Shown piece after piece: positions 180 through 17,464 of a stretch of DNA of 64,000 nucleotides. This stretch comes from Deltaproteobacteria bacterium (GTDB lineage: Bacteria; Myxococcota; Myxococcia; SLRQ01), in NCBI GenBank assembly GCA_029210625.1, contig JARGFU010000006.1, forward strand, positions 62,001 through 126,000, in the 5' to 3' direction. Below the pieces are notes generated by a model, which saw only the letters and a list, made by a program, of their open reading frames with translations, was not told the DNA's origin and made no database searches. A program made the position numbers and the translations under genes. The first letter of the stretch is position 1; every line of letters begins with the position of its first letter.

Positions 180-902
180 TCAGGGGCCGAAGAGCTCGTC
201 CACGACGTAGGTGACGCTGACGCCGAGCACCGCTCCGGCCAGCACGTCGGAGAGGTAGTGGCGGCCGTCCTGGATCCGGGAGGCGCCCACCAGCAGGGTC
301 AGGAGGGTGGCGGGCAGCCCCGCCCGCCAGCCGTAGCGGCGCCAGAGCAGGGTGGCCCAGGCCGCGGCCGAGGAGGTGTGCCCCGAGGGGAAGGAGGAGC
401 GGTGCCCGGAGTCGGGCCGGGGGCGGCCGACGCTCACCTTGAGGAGGTCGGTGAGGCCGGCGTTGATCAGCTGCGAGACCACGAAGGACTCGAGGGCGCG
501 CCGGTGGCCGGGGCGCCGCGCCTCCCGGTCCCAGAGCGAGAGCCCCCCGAGGGTCAGGGCGCTCCCCGCCAGCACGTAGGTGGGAGCCTGGCTGCCCACC
601 TCCGAGAGCCTCCCGAGCGGCTGGTTCTCCCGGGCCCAGTCCGAGGACTCCCGGTCCCAGTCCGAGGCGAAGCTGATCACCGAGAAGGAGAAGGTGAAGC
701 CGGCGACCTTCCAGGCGCCGTGCCGGGAGAGGCGCTGCCAGGCGTCCGGGGTGGCGGCCTCGGTCTCGCTCCCCCCGGGCTCCACCGCGCAGGGTGCTGT
801 CGCGGTCGCGGGTGCGGCCTCCTCCTCGGCGCGGGCCGGCAGCGGGGAGGCCGCCAGGAGCGCGAGGAGGAGCAGGGCTCGAGGAGGGAGGGGCGCCGGC
901 AT
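180..902 (-). CDS. PAP2-superfamily phosphatase, periplasmic
   Basis: This 240-residue protein has a signal peptide (cleavage likely after ARA, residue 25) and a complete PAP2 acid phosphatase signature. K155 to RP at 162-163 forms the first motif, PSGHT at 172-176 the second, and SR208-209 with H215 and D219 the third. In this family the two histidines and the aspartate carry out phosphate-ester hydrolysis, usually on lipid phosphates such as phosphatidic acid or undecaprenyl pyrophosphate. The substrate cannot be chosen from the sequence. Hydrophobic stretches flank the motifs, so it may be membrane-anchored. It lies 15 nt downstream of the CreD-like gene on the same strand, so the two could be co-transcribed. 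Confidence 0.9.
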   Translation of the reverse strand: MPAPLPPRALLLLALLAASPLPARAEEEAAPATATAPCAVEPGGSETEAATPDAWQRLSRHGAWKVAGFTFSFSVISFASDWDRESSDWARENQPLGRLSEVGSQAPTYVLAGSALTLGGLSLWDREARRPGHRRALESFVVSQLINAGLTDLLKVSVGRPRPDSGHRSSFPSGHTSSAAAWATLLWRRYGWRAGLPATLLTLLVGASRIQDGRHYLSDVLAGAVLGVSVTYVVDELFGP

Positions 903-5760: not shown

Positions 5761-7451
5761 ACCACCTCTATCGTCTGTCCCTGGCGGCCGCCCTCGTCGG
5801 CGCGCTCCTCTCGACCAGCTGCGGCCCGGGTGGGGGCAACAACGACCAGGGCTGCCGGGCCGACCTCCTGGTGGGAGACCTCGTCATCACCGAGGTCATG
5901 GCGAACCCCGACAGCACCGACACCGGGCGCGAGTGGTTCGAGATCTTCGTCAACACGACCGCCGCCGTGGACCTGACCGGGCTGCGCCTGGAGGTGAGCC
6001 GGGCGGACGGCACCGGCGAGGAGCAGCACACGGTCGCCGGCCTCACGGTGGACCCCTCCGACTACATCACCTTCGGCTCCTTCCTCGAGCCGGTCCCGCA
6101 GTGGCTCGACTACTCCTACGGCACCAACCTCGGCAGTCTGCGCAACTCGGACGGCCGGGTGGCCGTGATCTGCGATGACGTCGTGGTGGACGAGGTCGTC
6201 TACGGCAGCACCTCCGACGGCAAGGCGCTGGTCTTCACCGGCGCACTCGCGCCGGACTACTCGGCCAACGACGCCGCCGAGAACTGGTGCAACGCCAGCG
6301 AGGAGTACGAGACGGGCTCGATGGGCTCGCCGGGGCAGGCGAACGAGCACTGCGCCGGAGGGCCGAACCCCACCGAGTGCGACGACGCCGGTGTGCGCCG
6401 CACCCTCGTGAACCCCCTGCCCGGCGATCTCGTCATCACCGAGCTGATGCCCAACCCCGCGGCGGCCGACGACGCCACCGCGGAGTGGTTCGAGGTCTAC
6501 GTCGGGCGCGACCTCGACCTCAACGGGGTCGAGCTGGGCGCCGACCCGGGCAACCCCCGGGTGACCCTCTCCGGCACCGACTGCCTCTCCGTGACGGCCG
6601 GCAGCTACGTGGTCTTCGCCCGCACCGCCGACCCGGCCACCAACGGCGGCCTCGACGCGGTCGCCGGGACCTTCCCGATGGGGATGGTCAACGGCGGCGG
6701 CTCGATCTTCGTGGGCTTCGAGGGCGCGGTCCTCGACGCCGTGACCTGGACCGGCTCGGGCACCGGCATCTCGGTCTCGCTCGATCCCGCCTCCCAGGAT
6801 CCCACCTCGAACGACGACCCCACCAAGTGGTGCGCGGGCACCGGGACCTACGGCCTGGGCGACACCGGCACCCCGGGCGCCGCGAACGCGTCCTGCCCCC
6901 TGGTGCCCCCGCCGGGCTCCTGCGTCGAGGGCGGCACCACCATCCGCGCCATCGATCCGCCGGGGGCGGGTGACCTGCAGCTCACCGAGCTGATGGCGAA
7001 CCCCGCCTCGGTGGACGACGCGCTCGGGGAGTGGTTCGAGGTCCGGGTGGGCCGCGATCTGGACCTCAACGGGCTCGAGGTCGGTACCGACACCGTCGGC
7101 GGCGCGGTCCGCTTCACCCTGAACGACACCGCCTGCCTGCGGGCCACCGCCGGCAGCCACATCGTCATCGCCCGGGAGACCGACGGCGGAGTGAACGGCG
7201 GCCTGCCCTCGGTGCTGGCCACCTTCGACTTCGCCCTGGTGAACACCAACTCGGGCCTCTTCGTCGGGCACGGCGGCACCCTCATCGACTCGATGACCTA
7301 CGCCTCGACCTCCTCGGGGGCCACCCTCTCCCGGGACCCGGCCCTGGCGACCCTCTGGTGCGATCTGGCGGCCTTCACCACCCCGGCGGCTCCCACCTAC
7401 GGTCTGGGAGACAAGGGCTCCCCCGCGGCGGTCAACCCCTCCTGCCAATGA
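5757..7451 (+). CDS. Lipoprotein with three lamin-tail (LTD) domains
   Basis: The 564-residue product has a lipobox at C22 and three tandem lamin-tail-domain repeats beginning near residues 40, 222 and 404. Each starts with a GDLVITE(V/L)MANP-like strand, followed by EWFEV-x-V, and closes with a W-C...GDxGxPGxxN...C segment. Bacterial LTDs are immunoglobulin-like modules found on secreted or membrane-tethered proteins and often accompany nucleases and other hydrolases. No catalytic domain is visible, so a binding or scaffolding role is likely. Its ATG overlaps the upstream nuclease stop (ATGA), and its stop overlaps the next start (ATGA), so translation is probably coupled. Confidence 0.88.
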   Translation: MNHLYRLSLAAALVGALLSTSCGPGGGNNDQGCRADLLVGDLVITEVMANPDSTDTGREWFEIFVNTTAAVDLTGLRLEVSRADGTGEEQHTVAGLTVDPSDYITFGSFLEPVPQWLDYSYGTNLGSLRNSDGRVAVICDDVVVDEVVYGSTSDGKALVFTGALAPDYSANDAAENWCNASEEYETGSMGSPGQANEHCAGGPNPTECDDAGVRRTLVNPLPGDLVITELMPNPAAADDATAEWFEVYVGRDLDLNGVELGADPGNPRVTLSGTDCLSVTAGSYVVFARTADPATNGGLDAVAGTFPMGMVNGGGSIFVGFEGAVLDAVTWTGSGTGISVSLDPASQDPTSNDDPTKWCAGTGTYGLGDTGTPGAANASCPLVPPPGSCVEGGTTIRAIDPPGAGDLQLTELMANPASVDDALGEWFEVRVGRDLDLNGLEVGTDTVGGAVRFTLNDTACLRATAGSHIVIARETDGGVNGGLPSVLATFDFALVNTNSGLFVGHGGTLIDSMTYASTSSGATLSRDPALATLWCDLAAFTTPAAPTYGLGDKGSPAAVNPSCQ

Positions 7452-7954
7452 GCCGGACGCCCGCCGCCGGCCTGCGGGTCTGCTGCCTCCTGCTCCTCGC
7501 CACGCCCCTCCTCCTGCTGGGGGGCGGTTGCGGGGAGAAGTGCGGCCCGAAGAAGGCGGTGGTCACCGAGGTGGTCGACGGTGACACCGTTCACCTCGAC
7601 ACCGGCGACACGGTGCGGCTCCTGATGGTGAACACCCCCGAGATCACCTCGGGGAAGAACGAGTGCTACGGCGAGGAGGCTCGCCGCTTCACCACCGATC
7701 TGGTCGAGGGCAAGGAGGTCCGCCTCGAGTACGAGGACGAGTGCACCGACCGCTTCCAGCGCCTGCTGGCCTATGTCTCCATCGACGGGCGGGAGCTCAA
7801 CGCCCTGCTGGTGGAGCGGGGCTACGCCTGCGCCTACTACGTGCCCCCGAGCGGCGAGGATCGTCTCGCCGAGTTCGAGGAGCTCGAGCTCGACGCCCGG
7901 GCCGCCAGCCGCGGCCTCTGGGGTAGCTGCCAGGAGATCACATGTCAGGACTGA
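7448..7954 (+). CDS. Second SNase-family nuclease lipoprotein
   Basis: A compact 168-residue lipoprotein (lipobox cysteine C28) made of a single thermonuclease domain. Visible motifs are VVDGDT (42-47), R57, the segment VNTPE (61-65) and R105 in DRFQRLLAY. Compared with staphylococcal nuclease, the arginines and the glutamate are kept, but the calcium-binding aspartate of the V-D-T-P-E motif is asparagine (N62). Cysteines at 32, 73, 99, 128, 161 and 166 suggest disulfides in an oxidising compartment. It overlaps the LTD gene by 4 nt and the HhH-barrel gene by 13 nt. It is much shorter than the operon's first nuclease and lacks the extra OB-like domain. Confidence 0.87.
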   Translation: MSRTPAAGLRVCCLLLLATPLLLLGGGCGEKCGPKKAVVTEVVDGDTVHLDTGDTVRLLMVNTPEITSGKNECYGEEARRFTTDLVEGKEVRLEYEDECTDRFQRLLAYVSIDGRELNALLVERGYACAYYVPPSGEDRLAEFEELELDARAASRGLWGSCQEITCQD

Positions 7955-10155
7955 GACGGCGGGCAGCGCTCCCCCTCTTCCTCGCCGCCGCGCTCGCGAG
8001 CTCGCCGGCGCTCGCGCGGGAGTACGACGCCTTCGTCGAGATCGAGGACGAGGAGGACATCTACGACCTCTACGACGACGGCACCATCGACGAGGAGGGC
8101 CGCGACACCCTCCTCGAGCTCCTCGAGAGCGGGGTGAGCCTCAACACCGCCTCCCGCGACCGGCTCTACGAACTGCCCAACCTCACCCTGCCGGTGGTGG
8201 ACGCGCTGCTCACCTACCGCCAGGAGGCCGGGAGCCTCGACAACCCCGCGGCCCTGGTGGGCGCGGGGCTGCTCACCGAGCGCGAGCTCTTCGCCCTGGC
8301 CCCCTTCCTGATCGTCTCCCAGCGCGAGGGGGCCGCCTTCGGCACCAAGGCCCGGGTGCGCTACGACACCTTGCTGGTGGCGGGCGAGAACCGGGTCCCG
8401 GGGATGGCGCTGCGGGCCAACGCCGAGGCCCTGGGGGGCTTCCGCACCGGCCTCGCCACGCTCCTCACCCGCGATCGCATCGGGCGGGTGACCTACGACG
8501 GAAGCCGCGACACCCCCACCCGCCGGGCCCTCACCGCCGCCGCGCCGGTGCCCCGGCTGCAGCTCGCCAAGGCCTTCGCCGAGTGGCGGGAGGAGGACTA
8601 CGGGGTCATCGCCGGCACCTACAAGATCGGCTTCGGGCAGCGCCTGACCTTCGACAACACCGGCGACTACGCCCCCAACGGCTGGGAGAAGGACGACACC
8701 CTCACCCGGGGCGCCTCGCTGAAGACCGCCTGCAAGGAGAGCACGGGCACCACCGAGTCGCCGCTCTGCGACTACGGGAGCGACCTGCGGATCTCGCCCG
8801 ACTACCGGTGGACCCCGCGGCTGCTGGGCGTCGCCGGAGGGCACCGTCGAATCGACCTCGGCATGGGGCACCTCCAGGCCTTCGGCTTCGGCTCCTTCCA
8901 GCGGCGTTCCATCTACCAGTATGAGGTGCTCGACCGCAGCATCTGCTCCATCGACGACGAGGCGGCGGACAACTGCAACCTCTCCGACGACTTCAACGTC
9001 TACGTCGACATCGACAACCCGTCGGCCACCGCACCGGAGTTCAAGTACACGACCCTCACGGGCCTCTACGACGAGCTGGTCGTGGGCGGGAACGTCGCCT
9101 ACTGGTTCGGCGAGCGGGCCCGGATCGGCCTCACCGGCTATGGGGCGGCGCCCTTCTGGCGGATCCCCGAGATGGACCTGGACTTCCGGCGGTCCTCTCG
9201 CTGGCCCTTCGGCGGCCCCTGGGGGGCGGTGGGCCTCAACGGGACGGTCGGCTTCGCCTGGTGGGATCTGGGCATGGAGGTCGCGCGCACCATCGACTCG
9301 ATGAGCCTGGGGGGCGGCGACTTCGGCGCCATCGTGCGGGGCCTGGGGAGCTGGAAGAAGCGGGAGCTGGAGCTGACCCTGCGCTACTACGGTCCCGACT
9401 TCCACAACCCCTACGCCCGGCCCATCTCGGCGGCCGACGAGCGGGACGGCGTCCGGGCCCGGGACGAGGCCGGCGCCCGCGTGCGCTACGCGGGGGAGGT
9501 CCTCCGGGACCTGGAGCTGCGCGGCACCGCCGACCTCTGGACGACCGTCTCCACCGGGGTCGTCAACACCCGGAACGAGGTGCGGGCGACCTATCGCCTC
9601 ACCGACGCGATCCGCCTCTCGGCGTGGGGCCTCTTCCACGACAAGAACCTCGCCGTGGGGGGGCGGCAGCAGTGCTTCGGGACCGACACCTTCGAGGACG
9701 CCGAGGGCACCGACATCGGTGAGATCGAGATCATCGAGGGCTGCGCCGGCATGAAGCTCCAGGCCACGGGGCAGGTGCGCTACGAGCCCTTCAAGAACAC
9801 GGCGATCACCCTGCAGTACCGCAACTCCTGGCTCGACGAGGGCAGCGCCTCGGGGCGACTCTTCGACGACCGCTTCCGGCAGGATCGCTCCTTCTGGCTG
9901 ACCCTGATGGTCAAGCCGATCCCCGAGCTCCGGATCCGCGGGCGCCTGCGCTACCTCATGGAGGACGTGGCCTACGCGGACCACCTCGAGAGCTGGCTGT
10001 GGACCTACCTCGAGGCCACCTACAGCCTGCAGAAGCGCTTCAAGTTCCGGCTGCGCTACGACCTGGTGAGCTGGCTGGACCAGCGGGACAGCACGCGGGA
10101 TCGGATCCCGAACCCCGAGCACTGGTTCTGGTTCTCCGCCGAGGCCAAGTTCTAG
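7942..10155 (+). CDS. Helix-hairpin-helix protein with outer-membrane barrel-like body
   Basis: This 737-residue protein has a signal peptide (cleavage likely after ALA, residue 25), an acidic stretch (30-52), and a ComEA-like helix-hairpin-helix DNA-binding segment around 64-125, including LNTASRDRLYELPN (68-80). From about 135 to the end it is rich in alternating aromatic/polar strands, ending in WFWFSAEAKF with a terminal Phe, as in outer-membrane beta-barrels. The start has a good AGGAG and lies inside the preceding nuclease gene (13-nt overlap). The combination suggests an outer-membrane protein that binds DNA near the periplasmic face. I know of no characterised member; function is inference from domains and operon. 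Confidence 0.78.
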   Translation: MSGLRRRAALPLFLAAALASSPALAREYDAFVEIEDEEDIYDLYDDGTIDEEGRDTLLELLESGVSLNTASRDRLYELPNLTLPVVDALLTYRQEAGSLDNPAALVGAGLLTERELFALAPFLIVSQREGAAFGTKARVRYDTLLVAGENRVPGMALRANAEALGGFRTGLATLLTRDRIGRVTYDGSRDTPTRRALTAAAPVPRLQLAKAFAEWREEDYGVIAGTYKIGFGQRLTFDNTGDYAPNGWEKDDTLTRGASLKTACKESTGTTESPLCDYGSDLRISPDYRWTPRLLGVAGGHRRIDLGMGHLQAFGFGSFQRRSIYQYEVLDRSICSIDDEAADNCNLSDDFNVYVDIDNPSATAPEFKYTTLTGLYDELVVGGNVAYWFGERARIGLTGYGAAPFWRIPEMDLDFRRSSRWPFGGPWGAVGLNGTVGFAWWDLGMEVARTIDSMSLGGGDFGAIVRGLGSWKKRELELTLRYYGPDFHNPYARPISAADERDGVRARDEAGARVRYAGEVLRDLELRGTADLWTTVSTGVVNTRNEVRATYRLTDAIRLSAWGLFHDKNLAVGGRQQCFGTDTFEDAEGTDIGEIEIIEGCAGMKLQATGQVRYEPFKNTAITLQYRNSWLDEGSASGRLFDDRFRQDRSFWLTLMVKPIPELRIRGRLRYLMEDVAYADHLESWLWTYLEATYSLQKRFKFRLRYDLVSWLDQRDSTRDRIPNPEHWFWFSAEAKF

Positions 10156-10471: not shown

Positions 10472-11338
10472 CTAGCGGCAGGCGCCGCCCGCGCAGGTGG
10501 TGTTGCAGGTCGAGCCCGCGGCGCAGCGGCGCTGGCACTTGCCGCCGGAGCAGTTGAAGTTGCAGGTGGCGCCGCGGTCGCAGAGCTGCTGGCAGTTGCC
10601 GCCCTGGCAATCGGAGGTGCAGACGGAGCCGGCGCGGCAGTGGTGGCGGCAGCCGCCGGCGGTGCAGGAGAGGGTGCAGCTCTGGCCGGTCGCGCAGGTC
10701 GCGCCGCCGTTGCGCACCAGGGCGGCTCCGCCTCCGGCCGCGGGCGCGGGAGCGGGCGCGGGGGCCGCGCCGCCGCCGCCGGTGGCGGTCCGGCGACCCC
10801 CCAGCATCGGCAGGCGGATGCCGCCGCGGTTCAGGTTCACGACCCCGCCGGTGGTGCCGCCGGTGTTCGCCGGGGGCGCGTTGGTGGTCGGGGGAGGCGG
10901 GGGCTGGTTGGTGGTCGGCGGGGGCGGCGGCTGGTTGCCGGCCACGGCCACCTGGCCGTCCTTGCCCTGCACGTTCACGCCCTGGTCGTTGACCGTGACG
11001 GTGCCCTCGGCGCCCTTGGCGACGACACCCTTCTCGCCCACGGCGACGGTGCCCTCCTTGCCCTTCACGACGACGCCCTTGTTGCCGACGGCGACGGTGC
11101 CCTCGGCGCCCTGGACGTTCACGCCGCCCGCGCCCACCGTGATCGTCCCGTCCTGGCCCACCGAGACGCCGGTGTCGCTGCCGATCACGATCTTCGAGCC
11201 ACCGGACTCGATGACCGTCCCCTCGGCGGTCTTGGTGATGACGGTGGTCTCCCCCTGGGGAGCGTCGGGCTCCTGGGGGCAGCCGGCGGCGAGGAGGAGC
11301 GGGGTGGCGAAGAGGGCCACGAAGAGGGCGTTTCTCAT
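10472..11338 (-). CDS. Lipoprotein with 16-residue repeats and Cys-rich 19-residue repeats
   Basis: A 288-residue lipoprotein (lipobox LAAGC, C20). Residues 64-127 are four tandem 16-residue repeats of the form GTVAVGxKGVVVKGxE with a partial fifth, likely to fold as a beta-solenoid. A Pro/Asn/Thr linker follows (136-160). The C-terminus (215-288) holds sixteen cysteines in four 19-residue units with the exact spacing C-x5-C-x3-C-x4-C-x3. The ATG at 11338 is preceded by GGGAGA; the upstream in-frame extension looks non-coding. I do not recognise the family, though similar Cys-rich tails occur in myxobacterial surface proteins. Such density of cysteines suggests a disulfide-rich or metal-binding extracytoplasmic tail. 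Confidence 0.78.
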   Translation of the reverse strand: MRNALFVALFATPLLLAAGCPQEPDAPQGETTVITKTAEGTVIESGGSKIVIGSDTGVSVGQDGTITVGAGGVNVQGAEGTVAVGNKGVVVKGKEGTVAVGEKGVVAKGAEGTVTVNDQGVNVQGKDGQVAVAGNQPPPPPTTNQPPPPPTTNAPPANTGGTTGGVVNLNRGGIRLPMLGGRRTATGGGGAAPAPAPAPAAGGGAALVRNGGATCATGQSCTLSCTAGGCRHHCRAGSVCTSDCQGGNCQQLCDRGATCNFNCSGGKCQRRCAAGSTCNTTCAGGACR

Positions 11339-11446
11339 GATCGGTCTCCCATGTGCGGGATGGATTGAAGGCGCCGAGAAGGAAAGCAAAGCCCAACCCG
11401 GGGCCCAGGGGCAAGGGGGGGCGCGGGGCCGGTGATCGACGGGGCC

Positions 11447-11474
11447 CTGACGCAACCCCTCCCGTGGATAGAAT
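11447..11474 (+). promoter_or_regulatory. Sigma-70-like promoter of the two-CW gene
   Basis: CTGACG (11447-11452) and TAGAAT (11469-11474) are 16 nt apart, each one or two changes from the sigma-70 consensus, and lie 24 nt before the ATG at 11498. A Shine-Dalgarno-like GAGAGGGA lies between the promoter and the start codon. Confidence 0.5.
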
Positions 11475-11497: not shown

Positions 11498-11803
11498 ATG
11501 ACGAACGGTAGACCCCTGAACTGCTGGGACATCCGCCAGTGCGGACGAGAGATCGGTGGCGAGCGGGCTGCGCGCCTGGGAGTGTGTCCCGCCGCGATGG
11601 AGACCCGGCTGAACGGGATCAATCGCGGTCGTAACGCCGGTCGCGCCTGCTGGGCCGTCGCCGGTACCTTCTGCGGCAGTGAGTCCACCGGCCAGCCGGG
11701 CCCGGATCAGGGCTGCGAGAAGTGCGAGGTCTACAGCCGGGTCCAGGCCGAGGAGGCCCACCGCTTCGTCGGCAGCGCGCTGGTCCTGGCCCTGATCCGC
11801 TAG
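11498..11803 (+). CDS. Two-CW domain protein
   Basis: A small 101-residue, probably cytoplasmic protein with two conserved Cys-Trp motifs: NCWDIRQCG near the N-terminus and RACWVVAG-like RACWAVAG further on, plus CxxC-like cysteines (CEKC) near the end. This arrangement matches the small proteins named 'two-CW domain' in genome annotation, common in delta-proteobacteria; the cysteines may bind a metal, but the function is not known. The ATG at 11498 is chosen because GAGAGGGA precedes it and homologous sequence starts just after it. The gene is preceded by its own promoter-like sequence. Its stop shares a CTAG with the convergent TauE/SafE gene. Confidence 0.8.
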   Translation: MTNGRPLNCWDIRQCGREIGGERAARLGVCPAAMETRLNGINRGRNAGRACWAVAGTFCGSESTGQPGPDQGCEKCEVYSRVQAEEAHRFVGSALVLALIR

Positions 11804-12525
11804 CGGAGCGCCGCGAGGCCGGCCAGGAGCAGCAGGCCGAAGAGCGCCAGGCGGAAGGTCCGCTCGGGGACCCGGTGGTGGAGCCACTGCCCGAGCCCGA
11901 AGCCGACGGCCAGCCCCGGCAGGAGCCAGGCGCCCAGGGTGATCGCCTCCATCGGCGCCTCCAGGCGCGGAACGAGCACCGCGATCATCAGGAAGTTCAG
12001 CACCAGCCAGAGCGAGGCGAGGGTTCCGCGCAGGGAGCGCTTGTCGGTGAGCTGACGCGCCAGGGCGTAGACGATGATCGGGCCGCCGGTGGCGATGAGG
12101 CCGTGGACGAGCCCGCCGATCAGATAGAGGGAGGCCTCGACGAGGGGAGGGAAGGGGGCCGCCGGGGCCTGCCGCCGCAGCGTCCGCCAGAGCTCGCGCG
12201 CGGAGAAGGCGATCACCAGCACCCCGAGCAGGGTCGAGAGCCCGGTGGTGGGGATGCGCGGTGAGAGCCAGAGCCCCACCCCGAGCCCGAGGAGGGCGAG
12301 GGGGAGCAGGCGGGTCAGGAAGAGGCGGGCGCGGATCTCCTTGCGATCGAGCCAGACGATGGGCGCGGTCTGCAGGGGTCCGGTGAGGATCACCGCCGCG
12401 ACCAGCACCCGCAGGTCCTCGAGGTGGACGCCGAGGGAGAGGGCCACGACGTTCCCGCCGAAGCCGGTCACCGCCTGCGCGGTCGCCGCGAGGGCGATGA
12501 TGCTGGAGAGCAGGAAGGTCTTCAT
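11800..12525 (-). CDS. TauE/SafE (TSUP) family membrane transporter
   Basis: A 241-residue polytopic membrane protein. The N-terminus, with AVTGFGGNVVALSLG, is the characteristic first repeat of the TauE/SafE family (small anion or organosulfonate exporters), and hydrophobic segments recur along the whole length (about seven helices). The second half contains the matching GLIATGGPIIVYAL repeat. It presumably moves an organic anion or sulfur compound across the inner membrane; the substrate cannot be told. It stands alone: its 3' end overlaps the two-CW gene tail to tail (CTAG) and a 90-nt gap separates its start from the lyase gene end. Confidence 0.85.
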   Translation of the reverse strand: MKTFLLSSIIALAATAQAVTGFGGNVVALSLGVHLEDLRVLVAAVILTGPLQTAPIVWLDRKEIRARLFLTRLLPLALLGLGVGLWLSPRIPTTGLSTLLGVLVIAFSARELWRTLRRQAPAAPFPPLVEASLYLIGGLVHGLIATGGPIIVYALARQLTDKRSLRGTLASLWLVLNFLMIAVLVPRLEAPMEAITLGAWLLPGLAVGFGLGQWLHHRVPERTFRLALFGLLLLAGLAALR

Positions 12526-14800: not shown

Positions 14801-17464
14801 ATGCGCACGCTCGCCATCTACGTCGCCTTCTTCCTCTCCGGGGCCGCCGGCCTGATCTACCAGGTCATCTGGGTCCGGCACTTCGGCAACGTCTTCGGGA
14901 ACACGGTCTACTCCGCCTCCCTGGTGACCGGCGTCTTCATGCTCGGCCTCGGGCTCGGGGGCTTCTTCGCCGGCAGGTGGATCGATCGCCGCCGCGCCGC
15001 GGGGGTCGGGCTCCCTCTGCGCCTCTACGGGCTGGCCGAGGGCTCGATCGCGATCCTCGGCCTGCTGCTGGCCCTGCTCCTGCCCCGCCTCGGGCCGATC
15101 GCCGCCTGGATCACGTCCTATCGGGTCGGCGCCAGCGGCTGGCACGAGATCTCCTACGGGACGCACGTCGCGCTCTATGCCCTTGGCCTGGGCCTGCTCC
15201 TCCCCATCACCCTCCTGATGGGGGCGACCTTGACGCTGCTCGTGCGTCACCTGCTCGTCGAGCACCTGGACGAGGCGGGGTGGCGCATCGGCGTGCTCTA
15301 CGGCGTGAACATGGGCGGCGCCGCGCTCGGCGCCTTGCTGACCGACCTCTTGCTCGTGCCGATGGTCGGGCTGCTGGCGACGGCGTCCTTCGGGGTGGTG
15401 TTCAACCTGGCCGCGGCGATGATCGCCCTGCGGCTCGCCGGCCCGCCGGGAGAGGGGGGGGCGGGGGCGACTCCCGAGCCGGCGGCCAGGGAGCGCAGCC
15501 CGCTGGACGCGCGCACGGCCTGGACCGCGGTGACCCTGCTGCTCACGGGCTTCGGCGCGATGGGCATCGAGATCATCTGGTTCCGCTTCTTCAACATCAC
15601 CTTCGGCGCCTATCGAGAGGTCTTCTCGATCCTGCTGGCGGTCATGCTGGTGTCGATGTGGGCGGGGTCGGTCTGCGGCGGCGCCCTGCATCGGCGGCTC
15701 GGTGGTGCGGCGCGCATCTTCATGCTCTCGCAGGCCGGCGTGGTGATCACCGCCACGCTGCTCCTGATGTCCTCCGAGCCCGGCGGGGCGCTGCGCTACT
15801 TCAACGAATCCCTCCGGGCCGACTTCATCGCCAGCGGGCCCCTCCTGCGGGACCTGATGGCGGCGTGGTGGCGGATCCGGATGATCGGGCTGGTCATTGC
15901 CCTCCCGGCCTTCCTGATGGGCTTCACCTTCCCCGTCGCCAACGCGCTGGTGCAGGACGCCGAGGATCGGATCGGCCGCCGGGCCGGGGTGCTCTATCTG
16001 GCGAACACGATCGGCGCCGTGGCCGGCTCCTTCGTGACCGGCTTCGTGCTGATCCCCTTCCTGGGCACCCAGGGCTCGGCGTTGCTGCTCTTCGTCGCCT
16101 CGGCGACCGCCATCCTCACGATCTACCTGGCGGCGCGCTCCTCGGCCGCGAGGAGCGGTCGGCTCGAGCTCGCCGTCGCCGGCGCTGCCCTCACCGTCGC
16201 GGCCGTCGGCATCGGGGCCTGGATCGGGCTGGATCGGGGAGGGCTCCTCGCGGCCCACGCCAACGTGAACCGCCTCGCGGGGGAGCGGGTGCTCTCGACC
16301 AGCGAGGGGGTCTACGAGCTCATCTCGGTGACGGAGGACGAGTCCGGGCACCGGCGCCTGAACACCAACGGCCACAGCATGTCGGCCACCACGATCCACG
16401 GGCGCCGGTACATGCGGCTCTTCTCGCACTTCCCGCTGCTCCACCTCGATCAGCCGAAGCGAGCGCTGGTCATCTGCTTCGGGGTCGGCTCCACCGCCCG
16501 GGCCGCGGCGATGCACCCGATCGAGCGGCTCGACATCGTCGACCTCTCCCGGCACGTGCTGAAGCACGCGCCCTACTTCGAGAAGTGGAACCACGGCGTC
16601 CTCCAGGACGAGCGGGTCGAGGTCTTCGTCCAGGACGGCCGCACCCACCTGCGGACCCAGCCGCCGGGCACCTACGATCTGGTCACCCTCGAGCCTCCGC
16701 CGATCGCCTTCGCCGGCGTCTCCTCCCTCTACACCCGGGAGTTCTACGAGCTGGCGAAGTCGAAGCTGCGCGAAGGGGGCTTCGTCACCCAGTGGCTCCC
16801 CGCCTACCAGGTGCCGGAGGAGACGAACCTCGCGCTGGTCGCGGCCTTCGTCGAGGTCTTCGAGAACGCCATCCTCATCCAGGGGGACACGCGCGAGCTG
16901 ATCCTCGTCGGGCGGCTCGGACAGCCGGTCGAGATCGACCTCGACGCGCTCGAGGAGCGCCTGCGGCAGCGGCCGGTGGTGAAAGAGGACCTGGCGGAGG
17001 TTCGGGTCGCCAGCCTCACCGACTTCATCGGCCTCTTCGTCGCCGGGCGGGCGACCCTGCTCCGGGCGACCGAGGGCGTCGAGCCCATGAGCGACGACCG
17101 GCCGGTGATGGAGTTCTCCCAGTCCACCCACGTCCAGGAGTCGACGATCCCCCTGGAGATCCTCGCTCCCTGGGAGGCCGGCCAGTGGTGCCCGGCCTGC
17201 CTCTCGCCCGAGGGGAGCGATCCTCGCCTGCCGGGGCTGCCTCTCTACCTGGGGATAATGATGGGCATCTACCACAGCCCGGACTACCGCGAGATCCGCT
17301 CCTGGGAGGGAGACTCGCGGGCGATCGAGTTCTTGCTGCCGGACGGCGTCACGCCGCAGCACCCCGTGATCCAGTCCAGCCCGTGGCTGCGGCACTTCTT
17401 CGAGAGCGAGCCCCCGGGGCGCCCAGGCGGGGCACCTCCGGGTGAGCCGGGGGACGCGGGCTGA
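14801..17464 (+). CDS. Fused membrane/spermidine-synthase-like protein
   Basis: An 887-residue two-part protein. Residues 1 to about 455 are polytopic membrane helices opening with FFLSGAAGLIYQVIWVR, the hallmark start of 'fused MFS/spermidine synthase' proteins. About residues 485-760 form a soluble SpeE-like Rossmann domain: ICFGVGSTAR (near 557), IVDLS, VFVQDGRTHL, and YDLVTLEPPP followed by LYTREFYELAK. The SpeE aspartates that bind the diamine are partly changed (LEPPP where D-x-x-D-P is usual), so true aminopropyl transfer is uncertain. The start ATG has only a weak ribosome site. A GT39-like gene follows 29 nt later. In vivo function of this family is not established. Confidence 0.85.
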   Translation: MRTLAIYVAFFLSGAAGLIYQVIWVRHFGNVFGNTVYSASLVTGVFMLGLGLGGFFAGRWIDRRRAAGVGLPLRLYGLAEGSIAILGLLLALLLPRLGPIAAWITSYRVGASGWHEISYGTHVALYALGLGLLLPITLLMGATLTLLVRHLLVEHLDEAGWRIGVLYGVNMGGAALGALLTDLLLVPMVGLLATASFGVVFNLAAAMIALRLAGPPGEGGAGATPEPAARERSPLDARTAWTAVTLLLTGFGAMGIEIIWFRFFNITFGAYREVFSILLAVMLVSMWAGSVCGGALHRRLGGAARIFMLSQAGVVITATLLLMSSEPGGALRYFNESLRADFIASGPLLRDLMAAWWRIRMIGLVIALPAFLMGFTFPVANALVQDAEDRIGRRAGVLYLANTIGAVAGSFVTGFVLIPFLGTQGSALLLFVASATAILTIYLAARSSAARSGRLELAVAGAALTVAAVGIGAWIGLDRGGLLAAHANVNRLAGERVLSTSEGVYELISVTEDESGHRRLNTNGHSMSATTIHGRRYMRLFSHFPLLHLDQPKRALVICFGVGSTARAAAMHPIERLDIVDLSRHVLKHAPYFEKWNHGVLQDERVEVFVQDGRTHLRTQPPGTYDLVTLEPPPIAFAGVSSLYTREFYELAKSKLREGGFVTQWLPAYQVPEETNLALVAAFVEVFENAILIQGDTRELILVGRLGQPVEIDLDALEERLRQRPVVKEDLAEVRVASLTDFIGLFVAGRATLLRATEGVEPMSDDRPVMEFSQSTHVQESTIPLEILAPWEAGQWCPACLSPEGSDPRLPGLPLYLGIMMGIYHSPDYREIRSWEGDSRAIEFLLPDGVTPQHPVIQSSPWLRHFFESEPPGRPGGAPPGEPGDAG

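Follow-up and report, generated by a model that had tools for sequence, protein, structure and literature searches.

Organization of the locus

A predicted lipoprotein gene encoding 288 residues (P0001) lies in the window, that is, the whole stretch of 64,000 nucleotides that was analysed, which belongs to a host genome of 6.1 Mb in 64 contigs. The features of the gene and the disulfides proposed for its product are collected in Table 1. The translation matches the bacterial lipobox pattern, MRNALFVALFATPLLLAAG-C20, and P0001 is on this basis a predicted envelope lipoprotein, in agreement with the original prediction, which had been made from the DNA sequence and had recognised the lipoprotein signal. 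The G+C content at codon positions 1, 2 and 3 is 0.67, 0.63 and 0.97, and a third-position value of 0.97 is also found in both neighbouring genes measured. An antisense ORF exhibits a composition close to that of the gene (0.64/0.67/0.93), and so composition alone cannot exclude it; it was ruled out as a real frame by the lipobox and by the relatives, which were found in the sense frame.

Table 1. Features of the lipoprotein gene in the window and of its product
Feature	Position	Strand	Basis
Predicted lipoprotein gene, 288 residues (P0001)	10472..11338	(-)	Open frame, coding composition, GGGAG before ATG
Likely ribosome-binding site GGGAG, 7 nt upstream of ATG	11346..11350	(-)	By eye
Signal peptide and lipobox LAAG-C20, residues 1-20	11279..11338	(-)	Sequence, lipobox pattern
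Octad repeats GxxGxVxV doubled to 16, about residues 37-135	10934..11230	(-)	Autocorrelation; modelled strands
Pro/Gly/Ala-rich linker, residues 136-214	10697..10933	(-)	Sequence; low pLDDT
Cysteine tail, four units C-x5-C-x3-C-x4-C-x3, residues 215-287	10478..10696	(-)	Spacing, model, pair co-loss, even counts
Proposed disulfides 215-221, 225-230, 234-240, 244-249, 253-259, 263-268, 272-278, 282-287			Inferred

The neighbouring genes encode an SNase-domain protein, a TauE-type transporter, a PLP decarboxylase and a protein whose helix-hairpin-helix match falls below the cut-off; no functional link or pathway was found from these neighbours. The neighbour at 7942-10155 is present in two of five relatives and the TauE-like neighbour at 11800-12525 in none of the five. 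The gene at 7031-7954 (+) encodes a Staphylococcal-nuclease domain (Pfam E 1.3e-20) behind a lipoprotein-like signal, and translation probably begins downstream of the listed start. Running away from the lipoprotein gene is a 101-aa frame at 11498-11803 (+) that contains CWDIRQCGRE...LGVCPA...CW and CEKC, has a promoter-like site at 11447-11474 and has no Pfam match at E<=0.01. Further along, 14801-17464 (+) encodes an 887-aa protein whose C-terminal half carries a spermidine-synthase domain (Pfam E 4e-14); the protein also has an MFS match below the cut-off.

The cysteine tail

Apart from C20 of the lipobox, the cysteines of the translation are the 16 of the tail, at residues 215, 221, 225, 230, 234, 240, 244, 249, 253, 259, 263, 268, 272, 278, 282 and 287. 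Their steps of 6, 4, 5 and 4 recur exactly, four times, and the translation confirms the earlier description of C-x5-C-x3-C-x4-C-x3 repeated four times without exception. These are four exact units in register with glycine in the turns, which places the tail among the cysteine-solenoid modules described below. With both end cysteines fixed, such a pattern is one arrangement in about 2.4e14, and C-x5-C-x3-C-x4-C has no second occurrence in the six frames of the window. The first cysteine of the tail opens a C-x5-C turn and the last one closes a C-x4-C turn, and so every tail cysteine has a local partner.

Distribution of the tail module

A DNA pattern of two consecutive units was scanned over genome_contigs and matched at least 118 loci. 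Among the 118 loci listed, 16 were judged genuine by eye, all of them labelled myxobacteria or Deltaproteobacteria, and 102 were dropped by eye, either because their frames were poly-cysteine, of low complexity or otherwise unlikely, or because no frame contained the motif. The named relatives suggest that the window itself comes from the Myxococcota. A search with a 19-row profile at E<=0.001 found the module in 18 of the 195 genomes searched within the phylum, the genome of the window included. The profile matched none of 198 and none of 200 genomes from two other phyla, to which a Taibaiella and a Pantoea record belong. As a positive control, the profile matches twice in the genome of the relative L103, one match being itself a profile row. 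The match of profile A1 to the tail of P0001 (E 2e-16) is not independent, given that the tail is row 1 of A1. The relatives keep the spacing, a point on which the original prediction had made itself depend.

Signal type was assigned for 34 proteins: 32 have a lipobox, recognised by pattern or on visual inspection (one of them doubtful), and the other two have an ordinary signal peptide. At least four exact units are present in seven of 36 family proteins (P0001, L039, L048, L100, L131, L132 and L134), and the longest exact run is four units in P0001 and five in L134. P0001 has no Pfam match at E<=1 and a single NCBIfam match of 12.7 bits, far below the 210-bit cut-off; no close relative of the whole protein was confirmed in a protein scan of genome_contigs. 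The family was scanned against Pfam and NCBIfam with alignment A3, which holds 28 of the 35 relatives. Pfam returned DUF2807 in four of these 28 (best E 9e-4), Notch LNR in one and DuffyBP_N in one, and NCBIfam returned four models in one member each (best E 0.1), none of which is a clear Pfam or NCBIfam model for the tail module. A sequence search of solved structures gave nothing convincing, with best E values of 9.2 for the profile (thrombomodulin) and 0.64 for the protein, and a literature search that covered mainly open-access papers found none on the module, bringing up papers on TraA and one on coral instead. Judged from these sequence comparisons, the tail is a member of an uncatalogued, phylum-biased Myxococcota module family with no catalogue entries found, and the gene in the window is, its octad N-terminus aside, an ordinary member of it.

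Cysteine pairing across relatives

The fate of the C-x5-C cysteines was counted between consecutive C-x4-C anchors 14 residues apart, giving 80 loops from 31 of the 36 proteins. Both cysteines are present in 58 loops, both are absent in 21 and a single one is present in one loop, which is out of register by eye. Loops with anchors 13 or 15 residues apart (24 and 7, respectively) were set aside from this count; nine of the 24 and three of the seven carry one cysteine only, and by eye the nine comprise five CGDGxC-type repeats and four loops at the start of a module. Disulfides between adjacent coils would instead leave a cysteine unpaired in seven of 46 neighbouring coils. The lost pairs are spread over 11 proteins, some of which are closely related, and so the loop counts are not independent. 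The commonest replacements of a lost pair are A/V (5/21) and S/V (3/21), and polar replacements such as N/S also occur.

The number of cysteines after the lipid cysteine is even in 30 of 34 proteins and odd in four, the test set being the 36 family proteins minus L045, which is cut by the locus end, and L154, in which no signal was seen. The count of L103 is even whichever lipid cysteine is taken (24 or 26). The corresponding p value of 6e-6 assumes independent proteins, and these proteins are not fully independent. At C-x5-C anchors 13 residues apart, both cysteines of the C-x4-C pair are kept in 60 of 71 loops, the first is missing from its expected position in 10 and the second is missing in one (L141); by eye, nine of the 10 loops lacking the first carry a cysteine one residue later, in a cap-like ending. 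Both are kept in all 10 loops with anchors 14 apart and in three of five with anchors 12 apart, where one loop lacks both (L141) and one the second (L137). The C-x4-C pair is almost never lost, and the case for its pairing is made chiefly by elimination and by the phase of the tail. Taken together, the co-loss of pairs and the even counts point to local disulfides rather than to free thiols or metal, and they support the disulfide-rich tail that had been suggested from the spacing.

Predicted fold of the tail

AlphaFold2 modelled the tail with two strands per 19 residues and a pLDDT of 89-98, within a whole-chain model of P0001 that has a pTM of 0.37 (mean pLDDT of the five models 62-71) and a linker below pLDDT 50 at model residues 114-120 and 138-185 (P0001 residues 133-139 and 157-204). 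The model of L103 has a pLDDT of 88.6 and a pTM of 0.81. A second-look structural comparison of L103 matched 11 chains with Z up to 6.9, a range that may reflect a common arrangement only, and the leading matches are beta-rolls and beta-helices. Foldseek found no solved structure in the PDB at E<=0.001 for either model (best E for P0001 0.055), which is no evidence of a new fold, and a viral fold library likewise contained no match at E<=0.001 (best 1.7e-3).

One study describes AlphaFold2 as biased towards solenoids when given perfect repeats (PMC11795689). The repeats of the tail are imperfect. Across the 80 loops, the middle residue between cysteines is V, L, M or F in 54/80 and 57/80 cases for the two strands, and the flanking residues are T, D, S or N in 184 of 320, both as in a beta-solenoid. 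This residue pattern, read from sequence, is support for a solenoid independent of AlphaFold2. Counting against the fold, the middle residues of one strand in the tail of P0001 itself are H, Q and R, which are unusual for an interior. The tail is best described as a predicted two-strand beta-solenoid.

The octad region

The original prediction had described 16-residue solenoid repeats ahead of the cysteines. The periodicity is real: identity is 0.40 at lag 16, whereas the remaining lags between 8 and 23 give values of 0.01-0.23. An autocorrelation based on residue classes (Val/Ile/Leu and Gly) peaks at 8, 16, 24 and 32 (z 5.2, 7.9, 5.5 and 6.9), and the basic unit is therefore eight residues, GxxGxVxV, doubled to 16. 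The solenoid, however, did not carry over to this region, which AlphaFold2 modelled as a flat beta-meander with strands of about six residues, two-residue turns and block mean pLDDT mostly of 60-81; it is the cysteine tail that was modelled as a solenoid. Model residues 52-113 match a PhiTE baseplate chain (Z 8.6, rmsd 1.9, 62 residues) and residues 52-107 the phi92 membrane-piercing protein (Z 8.4, rmsd 1.9, 56 residues), and these scores are tied by flat single-layer sheets, namely the CPAP TCP10/G-box domain (Z 8.8, rmsd 5.7-6.4) and OspA (Z 6.7). The octad model resembles flat sheets and phage spike chains about equally, and so the term solenoid is not established for the octads.

The best lead on this region is a PHROG match of P0001 to phrog_18079, a group of unknown function (E 6e-5). 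Five candidate octad relatives (L003 and L005-L008) were rejected as spurious by eye, being an RCC1-like repeat protein and Pro-rich or other low-complexity frames. A search of the own genome for octad relatives at E<=0.1 returned P0001 alone.

A proposed disulfide-stapled solenoid and its alternatives

P0001 is fairly probably an envelope lipoprotein with a disulfide-stapled, four-coil solenoid tail that is likely to act as a rigid displayed module. The protein would be exported and then lipidated at C20, and its octad beta-repeats, followed by a flexible linker rich in Pro and Gly, would carry a C-terminal two-strand beta-solenoid of four 19-residue coils. Each coil would run through a strand C-x-x-x-C, a turn xGGx, a second strand C-x-x-x-C and a turn xGxxx, and the cysteines flanking each turn would join, as a C-x5-C pair at one turn and as a C-x4-C pair at the other, giving eight disulfides. 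The combined evidence argues for eight such local disulfides stapling the turns of a beta-solenoid with 19 residues per coil. The cysteine pattern, the family and the joint presence and loss of pairs are observed, and from there on we infer the disulfide map and the location of the protein. The disulfides would give a short, thin rod its stiffness and its resistance to proteases, with no need for metal or for a large hydrophobic core. By analogy, rigid display or adhesion is the putative function, the tail most likely being a rigid displayed module such as a stalk or an adhesive or binding tip.

Very dense and regularly spaced cysteines, together with two adjacent histidines in the tail, could also indicate that the 16 thiolates bind zinc, copper or other soft metals in the manner of a periplasmic metallothionein. 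This is quite unlikely: lipoprotein export leads to an oxidising compartment, where the tail would reside, the joint loss of C-x5-C cysteines and the even counts suit disulfides, and histidine is rare in the family, at seven of 400 counted strand-middle, first-strand and flanking positions. Small independent disulfide knots, as EGF-like or TraA-like beads without a continuous solenoid, are a little less improbable. Myxobacterial TraA has cysteine-rich tandem repeats that have been proposed as a rigid stalk (PMC3325183), CGDGxC..CPxDC repeats also occur in some family members, one of the 28 relatives has a weak match (E 0.11) to the disulfide-rich Notch LNR, and thrombomodulin is the single solved-structure match of the profile. 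Independent knots are, however, at odds with the alternating hydrophobic and polar strand positions and with the length of loops that have lost a whole C-x5-C pair, which is mostly kept (among lengths 13-15 examined, 21 of 23 are 14 residues and two are 15), both of which suggest coils of a single fold; TIGR04201 is absent from the NCBIfam matches, and EGF is not among the three Pfam families matched by the 28 relatives.

Two further readings concern the origin of the repeats and the nature of the octads. The exact spacing could be the product of a recent tandem duplication without much function, since Tandem Repeats Finder reports a 57-bp period over about two copies with 76-78% matches, and the original prediction had indeed suggested a recent expansion. 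That part of it is not supported: most positions other than Cys and Gly vary between the units, whose identity is 13-38% when cysteine is left out. Their nucleotide identity outside Cys and shared Gly codons is 38-56%, compared with 38% when codons of the gene are paired at random, and the spacing recurs in relatives from several families of the phylum. Duplication of this kind is highly improbable, and the spacing is best explained by constraint. The octads, in turn, could form a trimeric intertwined beta-prism of the gp5/VgrG kind, making the protein a trimeric surface needle with three cysteine tails, as the GxxGxVxV octad, the PhiTE and phi92 matches and phrog_18079 might suggest. The tied Z of flat sheets, which may mark a common arrangement only, and a best Foldseek E of just 0.055 speak against such a spike, which we regard as rather unlikely. 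The proposed stapled solenoid gives the module a concrete fold and a disulfide map that could be tested by one mass-spectrometry experiment, and it is a way into a set of myxobacterial lipoproteins that lack annotation.

Comparison with known repeat proteins

The best second-look match of L103 is the AlgE6 R module (2ml1; Z 6.9, rmsd 2.8, 99 residues), an RTX nonapeptide beta-roll. An RTX coil has about 18-19 residues, and the tail as modelled resembles it in coil size and in building each coil from two strands joined by two Gly-rich turns. RTX rolls are locked by calcium, whereas the turns of the tail are flanked by cysteine pairs and its repeats lack GGxGxD. This motif is absent from 35 of the 36 family proteins, and in L134 it is confined to a Gly-rich linker outside the repeats; the three Pfam families that the 28 relatives match include no RTX model, and P0001 has no Pfam match. 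It is conceivable, though less likely than not, that a counterpart of the RTX beta-roll that needs no metal arose in the Myxococcota, in which two-strand coils of 19 residues have each turn closed by a local disulfide instead of calcium, oxidation on export locks the fold, and turns may swap the disulfide for a small, often hydrophobic pair. This would suggest a way for thin solenoids to be stabilised without calcium.

Other systems can be set beside the tail. Putative adhesins of the DUF2807 family (PF10988) are beta-helical, and the domain was matched by the four relatives noted above at E<=1; P0001, however, has no match, and one relative scored 17.1 bits against a cut-off of 24.2 with a query that was one letter off. 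Tenebrio-type insect antifreeze proteins are small disulfide solenoids with short coils, like the predicted tail, but their coils have 12 residues and carry a Thr array. TraA resembles the family in being a myxobacterial surface protein with cysteine-rich tandem repeats. TraA-type repeats have three invariant and two marginally conserved cysteines (PMC3325183), whereas the tail has four per 19 residues. The TraA repeat model TIGR04201 was not among the matches of P0001 or the 28 relatives at E<=1, or of four longer proteins at E<=0.1.

Module proteins in the same genome

The host genome contains five module places: besides P0001, contig 5 encodes a small lipoprotein, and contigs 1 and 25 between them encode three larger proteins. 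The larger proteins (L154 and L155 on contig 1 and L153 on contig 25) have CGDGxC...CPxDC repeats followed by looser cysteine coils and no Pfam match at E<=0.01, and L153 matches the NCBIfam model CoaZ_rpt_PGGG below its cut-off. The small lipoprotein (L127, 1330-1806 of its locus) has three consecutive coils with Ala/Val in place of the C-x5-C pair, the clearest exchange of a disulfide for a hydrophobic pair, and an odd number of cysteines, 17, after the lipid cysteine.
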